From contig CAJXLE010000005.1 in the NCBI GenBank assembly GCA_913055895.1, positions 1 to 40,412 on the forward strand: 40,412 nt of DNA. The letters are read 5' to 3'. Source of the stretch: an uncultured Bacteroidota bacterium (GTDB lineage: Bacteria > Bacteroidota > Bacteroidia > Bacteroidales > UBA12077). The position numbers and the translations under genes were made by a program. Shown piece by piece: positions 3,419-21,603 of the stretch. The notes under the pieces were generated by a model, which was not told the origin of the DNA, made no database searches, and saw only the letters and a list, made by a program, of their open reading frames with translations. Positions within the stretch are counted from its first letter, which is position 1, and each line of letters opens with the position of its first letter.

Positions 3419-3550
3419 ACAATGCAAACAGCCTGCCAGGTCCAACCCAACATAAAGTTAGGGTGAGCAGGTAGGAAAATCATTTGGGCGCAGGAGCAGG
3501 GGGATGGCACGTTTTTTTGTATCTTTCCGAAAAATTTAAACAATAAGCGC

Positions 3551-5633: not shown

Positions 5634-6938
5634 TCAATCAAAGTGGATCAAAAATTCGGTCCAGCCGTCCCGGTTGGTGGCCAGGGAAAAAGAAAAACGG
5701 TGGGCCGTCAGCACTTCCCTGATAAAGGTGAGGCCAATTCCCTGGCCATTCTTTTTATCGGAATAAAAGGGGGTGAAGATCTTGTCTTTTGTAGCCGGCG
5801 AGAGACCGCGGCCGTTGTCCATGACCCTCAGCCGGAGGGGCCTGGCAGATGTTTCAATCCGCAGCACCCCAGCTCCGTCCATGGCTTCCATGCTGTTTTT
5901 TACCACATTTACCAGCACCTGCTCCATCTGGGGCCGGTCGGCCTTTATCTCAGGCTTTGGGCGGCAAAGGTCTTTTTCCACCTGCACCGACCGGTTTCGC
6001 AACTCATTGTCAAACAAAACCAGTACTTTGTCAACCAGGTTGTTGAGGTCCAGTTGCTGCAGGTTGGGATCGGGAATCTTCACCACGCTGGCATAGTTGG
6101 CCATAAAATGGTTCAGGTTGCTGTTGCGTTCAATGGAGGCCTCCAGGGCTTCCCGTATATCCCGTGAAGCTTCGTCATCCTCATCTTTATGCAGCTCCGT
6201 CAGCGAATGGAGAAGGGAATTGATGCTTCCCACCGTATTGTTGACCTCGTGCGACATGGTACGGATGACTTTCTCGTACGATTTTTTCTCAAAACGGACC
6301 CATTCCCGGGTGAGTTCTTCGACAACATAGAATGCCCGGCGAAAGCCTTTGTCCATGAAATACCTGCGGTGCACCTGGTAGATGTTCATCCCGTCGAGCT
6401 GAATGAGCGAGGAGCTGGGTATGTTGATGGCTGCCAGCTTACGGGCCAGGGGGTGATCCAGATCCCGGAGCATGCGGCCGTACAGCACCAGGGGATCATC
6501 CACCTGAAGTTGTTGAAGGGCCGCCGGGTTGGTCTGCAAGATGCGTTCCTCCAGGTCGAGGATGATGATGCCTACAGGGCTGGCATCCAACAGCAGGTCG
6601 AGGAAATGGTTGCGTTCTTCCTTTTGCACCCGTTCCTGACGAAGTTCCTCCACCATCTGGTTGTATACTTCCACAATGCCGTCCACCTCTTTTTGTCCCA
6701 CTTTCTGGAGGTAGGTGGAAAAATTCTTCTCTTTCAAAAGGGATATACCGGAGCTGATGGTTTGGATGGGTTTGAGCAGCTGCCGGTAGAAGATGGCAAA
6801 AAGCACGATCATGCCCACAAGCAATATTTCTCCCACCAGGAACATCCATTTGTTCTGCCGGAGCACTTCAAAGAGGATCAACCCGTATGAAAGGAAAAAG
6901 AGGCTGCCAAAGAGTATGTATCGTCGCTTAAGACTCAT
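5634..6938 (-). CDS. Membrane sensor histidine kinase
   Basis: This is the sensor kinase of the two-component pair that ends the hlyD operon. From the start MSLKRRYILF it has 434 aa, with two membrane segments (about 7-25 and 31-51) and a very short exposed loop. A HAMP-like linker (52-105) and a PAS-like domain (about 107-210) follow. The H-box is MSHEVNNTVGS (His230). The ATPase domain shows the N-box NVVKNSMEAM (Asn348), G1 DNGRGL (374-379), the F-box FTPFYS and G2 GQGIGL (398-403). The near absence of a periplasmic domain suggests that it senses within the membrane or cytoplasm, or senses the permeases themselves. I chose this start over the 13-codon-longer ORF because it overlaps the regulator stop by 11 bp, a typical coupling. 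The longer form would start inside conserved regulator sequence. Confidence 0.9.
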   Translation of the reverse strand: MSLKRRYILFGSLFFLSYGLILFEVLRQNKWMFLVGEILLVGMIVLFAIFYRQLLKPIQTISSGISLLKEKNFSTYLQKVGQKEVDGIVEVYNQMVEELRQERVQKEERNHFLDLLLDASPVGIIILDLEERILQTNPAALQQLQVDDPLVLYGRMLRDLDHPLARKLAAINIPSSSLIQLDGMNIYQVHRRYFMDKGFRRAFYVVEELTREWVRFEKKSYEKVIRTMSHEVNNTVGSINSLLHSLTELHKDEDDEASRDIREALEASIERNSNLNHFMANYASVVKIPDPNLQQLDLNNLVDKVLVLFDNELRNRSVQVEKDLCRPKPEIKADRPQMEQVLVNVVKNSMEAMDGAGVLRIETSARPLRLRVMDNGRGLSPATKDKIFTPFYSDKKNGQGIGLTFIREVLTAHRFSFSLATNRDGWTEFLIHFD

Positions 6939-8292
6939 ATCGTATGTTGTACTTATCCAGCCGCCGGTATAGGGCACCCCTGCTTAGTCCCAGTGAACGG
7001 GCTACCTGCGAGAGATTTCCACGGTAAAAATTGATGGTCTCCTGTATCAACTGTTTTTCCGCTCCTTCAATGGTTTGTAGTCCCATCCTTTTGTTGCTGG
7101 CATTTACAGGGGCCTGTTTTTCTATCTGAGCCTGGAAGTCATCACCGGTCAGTTCAGATCCCGAGGCAAGCAGGACGGTCCGCTCTGCCAGGTTTTTCAG
7201 CTCCCGGATATTTCCAGGGAAGGGATATTTTTTCAGCAGGTTTTCGGCTTCTTGTGTCATGGTGGCACCAGGCAGGTGGTTTTCATGGCACACCTGCCGT
7301 ACAAAGTGCCTGGCCAGCATGGGTATGTCACCGGGCCGTTCCCTGAGCGAGGGTACGGTCAGGTTGATCAGGTTGATGCGGTAATAGAGGTCCTCGCGGA
7401 ACGATCCTTCGGACACCATTTGCTCAAGGTTGCGGTTGGTGGCACATATCACCCGAACATCGGCCTCACACGTTTTGCTTTCACCCAGCACTTCGTACTG
7501 TCGTTCCTGCAGCACCCGCAGGAGTTTGACCTGGGAGGCCGGTTCCAGCTCACCCATCTCATCGAGAAAAATGGTGCCGCCTTCGGCAATTTCGAAACGC
7601 CCTTTGCGGTCGCTTCTGGCATCGGTAAAAGCTCCTTTTTTGTGTCCAAACATCTCACTCTCGAAGAGGGTGGATGCTAGGCCTCCCAGGTTGACCTTCA
7701 CGAAAGGCTTATCACGGCGAAGGCTGTTGTTGTGGAGGGCTTCGGCTATCAGCTCTTTGCCAGTGCCACTCTCACCGTGTATGAGCACCGTGGCTTCCGT
7801 AGGTGCCACTTTACCCACGTCATTGAGCAATTGCAGGAACAGGGGATCCTCACCAATGATCCCGGCCAGTGCATACAGTTCGTCCAGTTCCCGGCGGTCC
7901 ATGGATACGTCTTCCCTGTTGCTCATCATCTGATGGGTCCGGATGGATTCCAGCAGCCTCTTGTTGTCCCAGGGTTTGGTGATAAAATCGTTGGCGCCTT
8001 TTTTGATGCCCTCTACGGCCAGGTCGATGCTGCCCCACCCGGTAATCAGGATGACGGGTACACCGGGTTGAAAGACACGCACTTTCTGCAGCAGCTCCAG
8101 GCCTTCCCGGCCACTGGTGTCACTGGAAAAATTCATATCCATCAGGATGGCAGAGGGCGTTTGCCGGCGTATCCAGTCGAGGGTCTCCCCGGGACCTGCG
8201 AGGGTCTCCACCGCATAGCCGGACTGCTTGAGCAGGAGTTTCAGCGAAGAGCGCACAGCTTTGTCATCATCAACGACCAGGATCATATTCAT
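6928..8292 (-). CDS. Sigma-54-dependent NtrC-family response regulator
   Basis: This 454-aa transcription activator has three domains. The receiver (1-120) has acidic residues D8-D10, phospho-acceptor Asp52 (LMDMNF), Thr84 and Lys106. The AAA+ sigma-54 interaction domain (about 145-375) has Walker A GESGTGKE (173-180), Walker B FLDEMG (242-247), and GAFTDA (220-225) in place of the usual GAFTGA contact loop. A Fis-type helix-turn-helix lies at about 425-450 (LSQVARSLGLSRGALYRRL). Once phosphorylated by the adjacent kinase it should oligomerise on upstream sites and open sigma-54 promoters. The two sigma-54 promoters in this window are its obvious targets, which would include its own operon. 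It lies 25 bp after the permease gene and overlaps the kinase gene. Confidence 0.96.
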   Translation of the reverse strand: MNMILVVDDDKAVRSSLKLLLKQSGYAVETLAGPGETLDWIRRQTPSAILMDMNFSSDTSGREGLELLQKVRVFQPGVPVILITGWGSIDLAVEGIKKGANDFITKPWDNKRLLESIRTHQMMSNREDVSMDRRELDELYALAGIIGEDPLFLQLLNDVGKVAPTEATVLIHGESGTGKELIAEALHNNSLRRDKPFVKVNLGGLASTLFESEMFGHKKGAFTDARSDRKGRFEIAEGGTIFLDEMGELEPASQVKLLRVLQERQYEVLGESKTCEADVRVICATNRNLEQMVSEGSFREDLYYRINLINLTVPSLRERPGDIPMLARHFVRQVCHENHLPGATMTQEAENLLKKYPFPGNIRELKNLAERTVLLASGSELTGDDFQAQIEKQAPVNASNKRMGLQTIEGAEKQLIQETINFYRGNLSQVARSLGLSRGALYRRLDKYNIRYES

Positions 8293-8317: not shown

Positions 8318-9499
8318 TTACTCCTCTTTTAACGCCAGGGCCGGAGGTATTTTGGAAGCCTGCAGGGCCGGATAAAAAACACTGACAAACACCAGCAGCA
8401 GGATCACCAACAGGGCTGCTGCCATACCTTTGATAAATAGGCTCCATTCCACAGGCAGCAGGTCCAGGGCAGGTACCTGTACGATGATCAGAAAAGCCGG
8501 GATAAAAGCCATCAGGGTCATGGCCAGCAGCTCGGAAAAGATCAGGCCGCGCACATGTGAACGGGTGGCCCCTACTGCCCTTCGGATACCTATTTCCGAC
8601 CAGCGCTGGTTCACATTGTAACCCAGTATACCGATCAGGCCAAGGACCAGGTTGAAGATCAGAAAGCCCACCAGCAGGCCCACAAAAACCATGTCGCCAG
8701 AGCGGTTGGCGTTGGATACCTCCTTCATCGACTCCAGCGGCATGGACCGGGCTATCTTGTATTGATCCCTGGATAAGACCGAAAAAACTTCCCGGGCGTA
8801 CCCACGTGGCTGTGGATGGGTACCTTTCTCATACCTCACCAGCAGGTCGGTGCTGGCATAGACCCCGGTGGCCGGGTGGTTCATCGGAATGAAGATGGAA
8901 GGGCCCGAGGGCACAAAATCCCGGGTTTTAAAATGGCGAACCACCCCAATCACCCTGTATTGGTGCTCCATACCTTTTATACGCCGGCCCAGCGGGTCGC
9001 CCTCTGCGAAAAGTTCATCTGCCATGTCCCGGTTGATCACCGCGGGCACCACAGAAGGGGAACTCCCGTCAAAATCGCCGATCCAGCTCCCCTTTGCCAG
9101 CTCCAGGTTCAAGACTTGCCGAAAGCCTTTATCCACGTAATGGATGCGTGCGCTCGTGATGATCTCTCCATATTTGAATGACCAGCTGGAGGCCTGCATG
9201 ATATGGGGTGCCGCATACAGGGAAAAGCTGGCTGACTCCACCCCTTCCAGCTGTTCAATACGCTGGCGGATCTTCTCAAAATGATTGTGGGGACTTGCTT
9301 TCTCTCCTTCATGGTAGTTGATGTCCAGGCAATAAACCCGCTGGATGTCACATCCCGTACCTTCCAGGTAATTCGCTGCCTGGTCCACCATGTAGAGCAT
9401 GGTGGAAATGATGATCAGGAAGATGGCAAACAGTTCAAAAATGATGAAACCATATTTCCTCTTCTGGTTCCACATGATTTTAAATCCATGGAAAATCAT
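8318..9499 (-). CDS. ABC transporter permease, FtsX/MacB type (393 aa)
   Basis: This is a single-FtsX-domain permease of the MacB/LolCE class. It has an N-terminal membrane segment (about 17-37), a large periplasmic MacB-like core domain (about 40-265) and three C-terminal membrane segments (about 271-293, 322-345 and 358-383). The cytoplasmic coupling motif EIGIRRAVGATRSHV (after about 300) contacts the ATPase. Such permeases do not move substrate through the membrane in the classical way; they transmit ATPase motion to the periplasm (mechanotransmission). Its ATG overlaps the stop of the upstream permease gene in an ATGA, with GGAGG just before it, so translation of the two is coupled. The substrate is unknown. 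Confidence 0.92.
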   Translation of the reverse strand: MIFHGFKIMWNQKRKYGFIIFELFAIFLIIISTMLYMVDQAANYLEGTGCDIQRVYCLDINYHEGEKASPHNHFEKIRQRIEQLEGVESASFSLYAAPHIMQASSWSFKYGEIITSARIHYVDKGFRQVLNLELAKGSWIGDFDGSSPSVVPAVINRDMADELFAEGDPLGRRIKGMEHQYRVIGVVRHFKTRDFVPSGPSIFIPMNHPATGVYASTDLLVRYEKGTHPQPRGYAREVFSVLSRDQYKIARSMPLESMKEVSNANRSGDMVFVGLLVGFLIFNLVLGLIGILGYNVNQRWSEIGIRRAVGATRSHVRGLIFSELLAMTLMAFIPAFLIIVQVPALDLLPVEWSLFIKGMAAALLVILLLVFVSVFYPALQASKIPPALALKEE

Positions 9500-10758
9500 A
9501 ATACACCTCCTTTCATTACATAAGCGGGTTGCAGCCGGGAGATCCGCATGGCAGGTATCAACCCCGAGAGCACACTGAATATCAAAGAAACACCAATAAG
9601 TATGAAGAAAACCCCATAATTCAATTGCAGGGACACCTCCGACGGGTTGTTGATAAACCAGGCCGTAAAAACCTGCTCTTTAAAGCCGGTGGCAACTGCG
9701 TAAGCCATGATCAAGCCCATCACCCCGCCCAGGAAGGTGAGCAGGATGTTTTCGGTCATCACCTGCAGGGCCAGGTTCTTGCGGGTTGCCCCAAAAGCCT
9801 TCCTGATGGCTATTTCCTGGCTCCTTTCCTGAATGCGCGTCATGTTGATGCTCACCAGGTTGAGGGCCGGCAGGAAAAGGATCAGAAGGGCTTTACCTGC
9901 CATACCAAGATAGCTCATCCACAGGCCTCCATAAGCTTCGGGGTCGCGGTACCCTCTGAAGTAAATCTCTGCAGCCGGAGCCGGTCCTGCAAAAATCAGC
10001 TCCTGGTCGCCGTTCAAATTGTTCAACCGTTCGTTAACCTGACGTACCTGCTGTTGAATCTGCTCCCCGGTCCAGGTTTCAGTCGACCTGAAGGTTACGC
10101 CATAAGCGCCCGTATGACTGTAATCAGCATTCACAGGTGAATTGTTGCGCCGGGTATAGGGCAGCCATATCTGGGCGTAGGTGTTTCTGGAGAGTGAACT
10201 GACGTCTTCCACAACACCTGTTATCCGGTATACCTCCCCGTTGACGTCCATGGTGGTGCCGAGGGCATCCTTTTTGCCGAAGAGCTTACGGGCCAGGCTG
10301 CCTGAGACAACCGCGACATTGTGTTGTTCCTCAACATCCTTTTCATTGAAGGCATGTCCGTGAAGAAACCGGAAATCAAAGACCTTCCAAAAGTCTGCGT
10401 TGGTATACCGCAGGGAAAGATCACGAGCCCGGTTGTTTTTGAAGAAGGTTGCGCTGCCGGTTGACGAAAAAGCCAGGCTGTTGGGGGCAGCCAGCGGCCG
10501 GAAATGATTTTCAATGATGTTTAAAGGCACACCTCCCCAGGCTTCTGTCCCATCCTTACCATTGATCTTGACTTGCTGGATAAACAGCATCTCATCGTTG
10601 TTTTTCTCGGGACCCGATGGTTTGATGGACATCTCCACCTTGAGCACCATGATCATGATGACCATCACCGGTATGCTTATCCCAAAGAGGCTTAGGAAGG
10701 TAAAAAACCGGTTTTTTCGCAGTTGTTCCCAGAACTGTTGCAGATTCAAATATTTCAT
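9496..10758 (-). CDS. ABC transporter permease, FtsX/MacB type (420 aa)
   Basis: This is a second single-FtsX permease, paired with the next gene. I take the start MKYLNLQQFWEQLRKNRFF rather than the 15-codon-longer ORF, because the basic amphipathic start is typical of the family and the extra residues are not. It has membrane segment 1 (about 19-41), a periplasmic MacB-like domain (about 45-275) and three membrane segments in the last 140 residues, with the coupling motif EIAIRKAFGATRKNL. It is similar to, but clearly diverged from, the following permease, so the two may form a heterodimer around one ATPase dimer. It lies 172 bp after the ATPase gene, an unusually wide gap inside this operon. 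Confidence 0.9.
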   Translation of the reverse strand: MKYLNLQQFWEQLRKNRFFTFLSLFGISIPVMVIMIMVLKVEMSIKPSGPEKNNDEMLFIQQVKINGKDGTEAWGGVPLNIIENHFRPLAAPNSLAFSSTGSATFFKNNRARDLSLRYTNADFWKVFDFRFLHGHAFNEKDVEEQHNVAVVSGSLARKLFGKKDALGTTMDVNGEVYRITGVVEDVSSLSRNTYAQIWLPYTRRNNSPVNADYSHTGAYGVTFRSTETWTGEQIQQQVRQVNERLNNLNGDQELIFAGPAPAAEIYFRGYRDPEAYGGLWMSYLGMAGKALLILFLPALNLVSINMTRIQERSQEIAIRKAFGATRKNLALQVMTENILLTFLGGVMGLIMAYAVATGFKEQVFTAWFINNPSEVSLQLNYGVFFILIGVSLIFSVLSGLIPAMRISRLQPAYVMKGGVL

Positions 10759-10930
10759 ACGATTATTTTTTTTTCTAATAATTTGGCCATATGGAACCTG
10801 CATGAATAATCGTGTCCCTGTTGTGAAGGTTACTGGATGCAGGTTTCATTTGATTGTGTTATAATTCATCTATAGGTCAAATGGAGCTTACTCTTCCACA
10901 AGGGGTCAAAATACCTCGTTTTCTGATCTT

Positions 10931-11596
10931 TCAATTGACCTGTCTGCCATCAAAAAGGTGCACGATACGTCCTGTTTGGCTTGACAGCGACCGGTCGTGG
11001 GTCACCATCACAATGGTGGTGCCCAGTTCACTGTTCAGGGACCTGAGCAAAAGCATGACTTCCTCACCCATTTTGCTGTCGAGGTTTCCCGTGGGCTCGT
11101 CGGCCAGCAGCAGTTCAGGTTTGCCGGCAATGGCACGGGCCACTGCCACCCGCTGGCACTGTCCGCCTGAAAGCTCGGAGGGAAAGTGTCCCGACCGGTG
11201 TTTGAGACCCACCTGCTCCAGGACTTCCTGCGCCCTCATTTTCCGCTTTTTAGCAGGCATATTGCGGTACAAAAGTGGCAGTTCCACATTGTCGAGCACA
11301 TTGAGAGAGGGTATCAGGTGGAAATTCTGAAAGACGAACCCCAGCTTGTGGTTTCTCATCATAGCCAGCGATTTGTCGCTTTTGCCATTGATGGGGGTTC
11401 CGTCAAGGAAAAGCCGTCCTCCGGTGGGATTATCCAGGAGGCCCATCACATTGAGCAGGGTTGATTTGCCGCAGCCTGAGGGGCCCATGACTGAGAGAAA
11501 TTCACCCTTTTGAATCTTCAGGTTGATGCTGTCCAGGGCCAGGGTTTCAATGGTCTTTGTCCGGTAAAGCTTGCTGATGTTTTCCAGTTCTATCAT
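10931..11596 (-). CDS. ABC transporter ATP-binding protein, LolD/MacB type
   Basis: This 221-aa ATPase powers the adjacent permeases. All catalytic motifs are present: Walker A GPSGCGKST (38-46), Q-loop Gln90 (FVFQNFHL), signature LSGGQ (142-146), Walker B LLLADE (162-167), D-loop NLDS and switch His200 (VTHD). The LolD/MacB-type features (GLLDNPTGG after Walker A and the FQNFHLIPSLNVLDNV stretch) place it in the class that partners FtsX permeases. It is the only ATPase gene in the window, while four FtsX-type permease genes lie nearby, so it may serve all of them. It follows the adaptor gene by 16 bp. Confidence 0.95.
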   Translation of the reverse strand: MIELENISKLYRTKTIETLALDSINLKIQKGEFLSVMGPSGCGKSTLLNVMGLLDNPTGGRLFLDGTPINGKSDKSLAMMRNHKLGFVFQNFHLIPSLNVLDNVELPLLYRNMPAKKRKMRAQEVLEQVGLKHRSGHFPSELSGGQCQRVAVARAIAGKPELLLADEPTGNLDSKMGEEVMLLLRSLNSELGTTIVMVTHDRSLSSQTGRIVHLFDGRQVN

Positions 11597-11612: not shown

Positions 11613-12866
11613 TTAATTTTTGTATTTCAATCGCTGATGATCGGGGTATTTATCGTATATGGCGCTGCTGAGCACCACTTTTTGTCCGGCTTCCAGCCCC
11701 CCTTTCACCACCACATGGTGGTATGAACAGGAGCCCAGCACCACCTTTTTTCGAAGCAGTTCGCCGTTTTCCAGCACAAAAAGCTCGGTTCGGCCTTCTC
11801 CCTGGTAATATGCGGTATGTGGTATTCGGAGGGTATCGCAAAGATTTTGCTGGACCAGTCGTATCTCCACCTTTTTTTGCGCTTTCAGTCCGGGGTAAGA
11901 GGAATGTTCCAGTTTCACCGAATAGTTGATGTCGCCATGCTCCACACCGGGGGTAAGGCTGCTTACGTGGCCGTATAAAGCAGTATCGTCGACCAGTACC
12001 ATGGCCTGCTGTCCGGTATATACCTTATCCACCATCTTGTCGGGCAATGCGCCCCGTATGCGAAAAACATCGAGGTTGGAGACCCTGGCCACTTCCTGGC
12101 CTGAGGTGACCGTCTGACCGGGTGTAACGGCTATCCGGGTTACCACACCGTTCATGGAGGGCCTTATATCCGCCTGTTTTAACAGCTGCTGCATCTCCTC
12201 CAGCTCCTGCCGCTTCATAGCCATTTGCAGTTTCAGGGATGACATATCCAGGCGGATCATTCTTTTAAAGGAGGCATATTCTTTCTCTAGTTTTTGTTGT
12301 TCCAGCTTACTCAGCTGATAATCGATCTTGGCCTGTTCCACCGACTGAAGGGATGTCCCGCCAATCCCGAGCAACTCTTTCTCCTTCTCATAATGCGCCC
12401 TCAAACGGGCTGTGGTCAGGGAATCAGCCCGCAAATCACTTTCAAGTCCAAGCCTTCTTTCCCTGAGCTCTTCCTTCTTACGCTTTACGCTGTTCTCTTT
12501 CAAAGCCACCTCCTGCCTTACTTTTCTGTACTTGCGCTTCAGGGCATCCAGGTCAAGGGCGATCAGGCTGCTGGTGGTGTCGACCGTATCACCCGGGTGG
12601 TGGTTGACCTTCAGAACCTTTGCATGAACCGGTGTGGTGATCACTTCGTGGTATACCGGCTCCACCTTACCACCGGTGCTGACGCTTGTAACGACGTCTC
12701 CTCGTGTTACCGGGGCCACCTGGTAACCATCAAGCTCCACCACAGGTTCCATGAAGGAGGGGATGACAAGCCACATGCCCGCAAAGACAAGCAGGATGGA
12801 AAACCCTGTGATCCACCGCCTGAGGGTTCTTTTGCGCAAATACGATTTCGACAAATCTCGGTCCAT
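11613..12866 (-). CDS. HlyD/MacA-like periplasmic adaptor (membrane fusion) protein
   Basis: This is the periplasmic adaptor of the ABC system and the first gene of its operon. From the start MDRDLSKSYLRKRTLRRW it has 417 aa. It has a basic N-terminus, one membrane anchor (about 18-36), the first half of a lipoyl-like domain (about 60-100, HHPGDTVD), a long coiled-coil hairpin (about 105-232), the second lipoyl half (235-265, TPGQTVTSGQEV) and beta-barrel and membrane-proximal domains. The listed ORF begins 28 codons earlier, but that would put the start upstream of the sigma-54 promoter at 12887-12902. The start I chose is about 9 nt from the predicted transcription start. No TolC-type outer-membrane factor is encoded in the window. 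Confidence 0.9.
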   Translation of the reverse strand: MDRDLSKSYLRKRTLRRWITGFSILLVFAGMWLVIPSFMEPVVELDGYQVAPVTRGDVVTSVSTGGKVEPVYHEVITTPVHAKVLKVNHHPGDTVDTTSSLIALDLDALKRKYRKVRQEVALKENSVKRKKEELRERRLGLESDLRADSLTTARLRAHYEKEKELLGIGGTSLQSVEQAKIDYQLSKLEQQKLEKEYASFKRMIRLDMSSLKLQMAMKRQELEEMQQLLKQADIRPSMNGVVTRIAVTPGQTVTSGQEVARVSNLDVFRIRGALPDKMVDKVYTGQQAMVLVDDTALYGHVSSLTPGVEHGDINYSVKLEHSSYPGLKAQKKVEIRLVQQNLCDTLRIPHTAYYQGEGRTELFVLENGELLRKKVVLGSCSYHHVVVKGGLEAGQKVVLSSAIYDKYPDHQRLKYKN

Positions 12867-12886
12867 CGGTTTTTGACCAAAGCTTA

Positions 12887-12902
12887 GCAAGCTCCCTGCC
12901 AA
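12887..12902 (-). promoter_or_regulatory. Sigma-54 (-24/-12) promoter of the hlyD operon
   Basis: Read on the minus strand the sequence is TTGGCAGGGAGCTTGC, followed by TAAG. It matches the sigma-54 consensus TTGGCACGnnnnTTGC except at two positions within the CACG block, and it has the required GG-to-GC spacing of 12. The predicted transcription start is near 12875, about 9 nt before the chosen ATG of the adaptor gene. The operon it drives encodes a sigma-54 activator, which is strong contextual support. Confidence 0.8.
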
Positions 12903-12955
12903 AAATGTTATCAATCTGATATTGTGTATTTTAATCATGAACCCATGCATCCCTT

Positions 12956-12992
12956 CCTGTCCACAAATGGACAGGTTGTCCGCAAGTCAACA
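12956..12992. promoter_or_regulatory. Tandem activator-binding sites upstream of the hlyD promoter
   Basis: A perfect 8-4-8 dyad, CCTGTCCA-CAAA-TGGACAGG (12956-12975), is followed at a 19-bp offset by a weaker copy, TGTCCGCAAGTCAACA (12977-12992), which matches the core TGTCCACAAATGGACA at 12 of 16 positions. Both lie about 55-90 bp upstream of the -24 box, a normal distance for enhancer sites of NtrC-type activators. The response regulator of this operon is the likely ligand; this is inference. Confidence 0.65.
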
Positions 12993-13016: not shown

Positions 13017-13036
13017 GCCCCGCGTGGAAGCGGGGC
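13017..13036 (-). terminator. Rho-independent terminator of the S46 peptidase gene
   Basis: On the minus strand GCCCCGC-TTCCAC-GCGGGGC is followed by TTTTTA, a textbook intrinsic terminator with a 7-bp GC-rich stem. It lies 67 bp after the peptidase stop and just upstream of the activator sites of the hlyD operon. It therefore insulates that operon from read-through. Confidence 0.9.
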
Positions 13037-21567: not shown

Positions 21568-21603
21568 TGTCCGGCAACGAACAAGGCAGACCGTAATCGT
21601 ACA
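21568..21603. promoter_or_regulatory. Activator-binding sites upstream of the large-permease promoter
   Basis: TGTCCGGCAACGAACA (21568-21583) follows the same TGTCC-N6-(G)nACA pattern as the two sites upstream of the hlyD operon. A degenerate second copy (AGACCGTAATCGTACA, 21588-21603) stands 20 bp further, which mirrors the 19-bp tandem spacing there. The sites are about 90-125 bp upstream of the -24 box. That the response regulator at 6928-8292 binds both promoters is inference. Confidence 0.55.

Follow-up and report, generated by a model that had tools for sequence, protein, structure and literature searches.

MacAB-type tripartite exporters are built from an HlyD-type adaptor, a MacB-type ATPase and MacB_PCD/FtsX permeases. 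In the BceRS–BceAB systems of Firmicutes, which also contain an FtsX-family exporter, the kinase senses flux through the ABC transporter and the regulator is of the OmpR type. In the ZraS–ZraR and NtrB–NtrC systems, a sensor kinase and a REC-AAA+-Fis regulator are combined with a −24/−12 promoter and an upstream palindromic site, and the regulator operon is autoregulated, as PMC12316311 mentions for ZraSR. The same paper, a statistical survey published in 2025, finds sigma-54 promoters enriched in front of FtsX-like ABC permeases (COG0577) in Bacteroidia and calls this the first link of sigma-54 with FtsX-like permeases (PMC12316311); the general association in Bacteroidia is already known. 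Whereas its accessible parts offer class-level statistics, without an enhancer sequence, a fixed spacing or a specific activator, we dissect one operon, and the matched enhancer, the helically phased spacing, the association with a regulator encoded in the same operon and the self-contained loop proposed below appear to be new detail. Within the open-licence literature we found no experimental study of this exporter operon; subscription journals may hold earlier work.

The operon lies on the minus strand of the window, by which we mean the whole 40,412-nt stretch analyzed, in a source genome of 3.3 Mb and 285 contigs. We consider it highly probable that the box in front of hlyD drives a self-contained export module that activates itself, made up of a kinase, a regulator, a palindrome, sigma-54 and a co-transcribed pump and sensor. 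The features are as follows.

13017–13036, minus strand: terminator-like hairpin and T-run, separating the operon from the S46 peptidase gene upstream of it
12977–12992, minus strand: weaker second palindrome-like site, TGTtgacttgcGGACA (2 mismatches)
12956–12975, minus strand: candidate enhancer (UAS), the perfect palindrome CCTGTCCATTTGTGGACAGG, its core kept in orthologous operons
12887–12901, minus strand: putative sigma-54 promoter box, TGGCA and TTGC separated by GGGAGC (−24 GG, −12 GC), by sequence match and conservation
12875, minus strand: predicted start of transcription, placed by standard sigma-54 geometry at 12 nt from the −12 C
11613–12866, minus strand: hlyD, periplasmic adaptor (membrane fusion protein) of 417 aa, Pfam HlyD_3
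10931–11596, minus strand: MacB-type ABC ATPase, Pfam ABC_tran
9496–10803, minus strand: MacB/FtsX permease A, Pfam MacB_PCD and FtsX
8318–9499, minus strand: MacB/FtsX permease B, by Pfam domains
6928–8292, minus strand: NtrC-family response regulator, fifth gene, proposed activator of the promoter, by domain matches
5634–6977 (alternative start ATG 6938), minus strand: sensor histidine kinase, last gene, PAS and HATPase matches

An adaptor, an ATPase and a MacB_PCD/FtsX permease are encoded together, as in a MacAB-type tripartite exporter; unlike in that type, the ATPase is separate from the permease and there are two permeases. No outer-membrane (TolC-type) channel gene is seen within the operon of this genus. 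In the operons of two relatives, G058 and G083, permease B and the regulator are set apart by an additional 1.7–1.9 kb (L081 7959–9658 and L082 11025–12916, respectively), perhaps an outer-membrane channel gene, and this insert is absent in this genus (window 8318–8292). All six genes lie on one strand with gaps below 30 nt, save for ~130–170 nt that separate the ATPase gene from permease A, whose start is likely ATG 10758, as ortholog matches begin at residues 14–21. That gap has no minus-strand terminator call and could hide an internal promoter.

Domain matches bear out the first-pass annotation in ending the operon with an NtrC-family regulator and its kinase. The regulator matches Response_reg (REC), Sigma54_activat (AAA+) and HTH_8 (Fis HTH) above cut-offs, its phospho-acceptor Asp, D52, is invariant among orthologs and its Walker motifs are retained. 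In the window regulator and 6/7 orthologs the sigma-54 contact loop reads GAFTDA rather than GAFTGA, a form listed in Desulfovibrio among variants expected to be still active (PMC4641369). In the kinase, two predicted transmembrane helices, few residues apart, precede PAS, an H-box (MSHEVNN) and HATPase, and the topology is similar in the six orthologs examined. The kinase thus appears to lack a periplasmic sensor, and it would most naturally sense inside the membrane or via the pump. Here the locus resembles BceRS–BceAB, in which an FtsX-family exporter is likewise encoded with a kinase of two transmembrane helices and almost no loop between them, but the output is NtrC/sigma-54 in place of an OmpR-type regulator and an adaptor is present. 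The likeness to ZraS–ZraR and NtrB–NtrC is one of architecture, ZraR site sequences lying outside the comparison, and extends to autoregulation if the loop proposed here operates; what differs is that regulator and kinase end an ABC exporter operon and that the kinase is without a periplasmic sensor domain.

The sequence proposed as the promoter, TTGGCAGGGAGCTTGC (12902–12887, minus strand), has GG at 12900–12899 and GC at 12888–12887 with exactly 10 nt between them, so that the −24 and −12 elements are at the strict spacing first claimed. The box itself, TGGCAGGGAGCTTGC (12901–12887), has one mismatch to the consensus TGGCAC-N5-TTGC and its 3′ end is 20 nt before the hlyD ATG at 12866, again as annotated; minus-strand positions 12905–12861, around box and ATG, read TTTTTGGCAGGGAGCTTGCTAAGCTTTGGTCAAAAACCGATGGAC. 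Taken alone, the match is at chance level. The window holds two exact copies of TGGCA-N6-TTGC where 0.66 are expected, a count of 2 being reached in 16/100 shuffles, and sites with at most two mismatches to the full consensus are fewer than expected (31 observed, 49.5 expected). A box at 3424 (TGGCAGGCTGTTTGC) was rejected as a promoter and judged a chance match; the palindrome is absent nearby.

What makes the 12901–12887 box significant is its position and conservation rather than the match. If its GG-N10-GC were a coincidence, as the window counts taken by themselves would allow, hlyD would be transcribed from a housekeeping promoter elsewhere. However, the position of the box is kept across the genus and in Bacteroidaceae together with a matched upstream palindrome, and no strict Bacteroidota −33/−7 promoter (TTTG/TAnnTTTG) occurs between 13200 and 5601 of the minus strand; we disfavor this explanation as extremely improbable. 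The source genome has a single rpoN (PF04552 at G000:C31, E 3.6e-56), and all nine of the genomes tested, the source and 8/8 relatives, encode RpoN. The first-pass claim of a sigma-54 promoter is thus upheld by conservation, the palindrome and rpoN, but a box at strict spacing is insufficient as its sole reason; once the comparative evidence is added, the case that the box is a sigma-54 promoter is convincing.

That evidence comes from the window operon and seven genomes of the same order. Adaptor, ATPase, permeases and regulator occur together in 7/7 of the other genomes and the kinase is matched in 6/7, the stretch read in the remaining genome (G049) ending just past the regulator. Identities to the window HlyD are 71, 61, 34, 29, 27, 27 and 26%; the ATPase is 64–80% identical in the orthologous operons and the regulator 77–52%. 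In the two genomes of the same genus, the box stands at the same place amid otherwise diverged DNA (G003, TGGCAGGGGGATTGC; G002, TGGCAATGAAATTGC). A −24/−12-like box also precedes hlyD in orthologous operons of five other families, weakly so in G058 (TTGCACAGCGCTTGT).

Reading the hlyD upstream regions of the eight operons also revealed the palindrome, which the first-pass annotation had not reported. Its core, TGTCC-N6-GGACA (12973–12958 in the window), lies upstream of hlyD in 8/8 operons, as the variant CGTCC-N6-GGACG in G044. The distance from palindrome to −24 is 56 bp in the window and 56, 56, 56, 55, 44, 45 and 44 bp in the others, which makes two spacing classes one helical turn apart, 55–56 bp in five genomes and 44–45 bp in three. 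The conserved palindrome probably serves as the enhancer of the operon's own NtrC-type regulator, an assignment that we infer from co-localization. The second site, TGTtgacttgcGGACA, is centered 19 bp upstream of the UAS, and its conservation is restricted to a GGACA/NNACA half-site.

Could the palindrome mainly be the transcription terminator of the upstream gene instead of an enhancer? In G044 (L080) and G083 (Bacteroides pyogenes; L082) it forms part of a longer stem with a T-run after it, and in Bacteroidaceae the flanks are repeatedly A/T-rich. In the window, however, no T-run follows the palindrome and a separate terminator hairpin lies upstream at 13036–13017. A terminator would need neither the kept TGTCC/GGACA letters nor the helically phased distance to −24, and we regard this explanation as very unlikely. 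The hairpins of G044 and G083 may be terminator and enhancer in one.

Conservation of the pair, which we read as promoter and enhancer, extends well beyond these eight operons. Three HlyD orthologs used as queries against bacterial genomes yielded 80 loci, nearly all from Bacteroidaceae and including Bacteroides, Phocaeicola, Mediterranea and relatives. The palindrome (at most two mismatches) is present in 78/80 and a GGCAY −24 box in all 78, with a gap of 44 or 45 bp in 77 of these and a single gap of 47 bp. The palindrome is lacking at L164, where the contig starts 110 bp upstream of hlyD, and at L187. Bacteroidaceae have a looser −12 element (TTGC, TTGA, TTGT, TGGC, TCGC or TAGT), and its GC is missing from many Bacteroides boxes. 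Palindrome and box at permitted spacings were found in 71/72 dereplicated hlyD regions against 26/14,400 dinucleotide shuffles, counts that show conservation rather than independent trials, the loci being related and the allowed spacings having been set after seeing the data. For the window region alone, 95/20,000 shuffles pass. The same test is passed by 1.3% of downstream 260-bp tiles, perhaps in part through further palindromes. At L119, L120, L162 and L189, a further palindrome lies ~130–145 bp before the ATPase gene, and the exporter cluster is split or enlarged in several Bacteroidaceae, these four loci among them. A phylum-wide scan for palindrome plus box found 4/396 genomes, which says little on distribution as the order is thinly sampled.

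Within the source genome, the pairing of palindrome and TGGC appears essentially confined to the hlyD promoter. The exact core has two matches in 3.3 Mb, the UAS and C25:19365, and the latter has no comparable box 3′ of it. Searching for the core with TGGCW at 40–60 bp gave hlyD and one other site with a poor core (G000:C2:34099). Since the pair is near-unique, the regulator probably has few targets, perhaps its own operon alone, a count that weaker sites would escape. Three palindrome–TGGCA sites elsewhere in G003 were rejected as regulon members, as they lie inside AGCGCT-rich repeats.

It is also possible that the promoter is a real sigma-54 promoter whose palindrome is bound by another NtrC-type regulator, the operon being controlled in trans and its own regulator acting elsewhere. 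The genome encodes ~10 full sigma-54 activator domains plus fragments, so candidates exist, and at many Bacteroidaceae loci the operon's own regulator was not found within the 10 kb read around hlyD, so that a self-contained loop would be hypothetical at those loci. On the other hand, eight genomes of this order have the regulator alongside the exporter (seven with the kinase as well), and palindrome plus TGGC is nearly limited to this one promoter in the source genome. We consider control in trans unlikely and favor the co-encoded regulator as the activator.

The hlyD start had been moved downstream in the first-pass annotation, a correction with which our alignment agrees. The longer ORF indeed begins upstream of the box, at ATG 12950, and would put the promoter inside the gene; HlyD residues M1-D2-R3 are invariant in 8/8 orthologs; and in G003 an in-frame TAA separates the box from the M-D-R ATG. 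For these reasons the start is assigned to ATG 12866, which corrects the N terminus of the exporter protein HlyD. The predicted leader is 9 nt in the window and 12–35 nt in the other seven operons. Among leaders mapped in B. thetaiotaomicron, those below 10 nt make up ~3.7% and the commonest length is 23 nt (PMC7366714).

How might such an operon be switched on? Sigma-54 RNA polymerase would be held closed at the 12901–12887 box until the membrane kinase encoded by the last gene phosphorylates the NtrC-type regulator encoded by the fifth. The regulator would then oligomerize on the palindrome at 12975–12956, and possibly also on the weaker site at 12992–12977, touch sigma-54 at a distance of ~56 bp, always from one face of the helix, and open the promoter near 12875 at the expense of ATP. 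Transcription would begin ~9 nt before the hlyD ATG at 12866 and proceed through the adaptor, the ATPase, the two MacB/FtsX permeases, the regulator and the kinase. As one transcript would carry all six genes, induction would lift pump and sensor alike, and we infer from this arrangement the closed loop suggested at first pass, in which exporter, regulator and kinase are self-activated. The result is a specific promoter, an enhancer and a candidate activator that are open to direct testing, and the promoter–enhancer pair, a layout shared with Bacteroides of the human gut, is also found in species available in culture, B. fragilis and Phocaeicola vulgatus among them. No paper on RpoN in gut Bacteroides was found in the open-licence literature, and the subject appears to be scarcely studied.

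Finally, other FtsX permease genes have similar boxes. At 7/14 FtsX permease loci of the source genome (G000, L090–L104), a box with at least 8/10 matches lies 21–46 nt before the start, against ~0.3 expected from a simple binomial estimate, and several FtsX permease genes are on the same contig as a gene for an NtrC-type activator (C63, C80, C72, C29 and C39). This suggests that exporters are a genome-wide sigma-54 theme. A bolder generalization, which we offer tentatively and hold to be possible rather than probable, is that in Bacteroidales RpoN is chiefly the output of exporter-sensing modules that are self-contained. Each module would combine a pump of the FtsX type with a kinase that has no periplasmic sensor and monitors the membrane or the pump, a dedicated activator of the NtrC type and a palindromic enhancer of its own. 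If true, these modules would be a sigma-54 counterpart of BceRS–BceAB flux sensing, built as a positive-feedback switch. In the window, a second sigma-54-like box, TGGCACGTTACTTGA (21479–21465, minus strand), stands 21 nt before the gene for a 795-aa FtsX permease (ORF 21443–19056). Related genes are preceded by counterparts of this box in G003 (TGGCATGTGATTTGA) and, for a second copy in G002, by TGGCATGTTAATTGA, which has TTGA at −12. Upstream of the 21479–21465 box, TGTTCGTTGCCGGACA at 21583–21568 is a possible, different enhancer.
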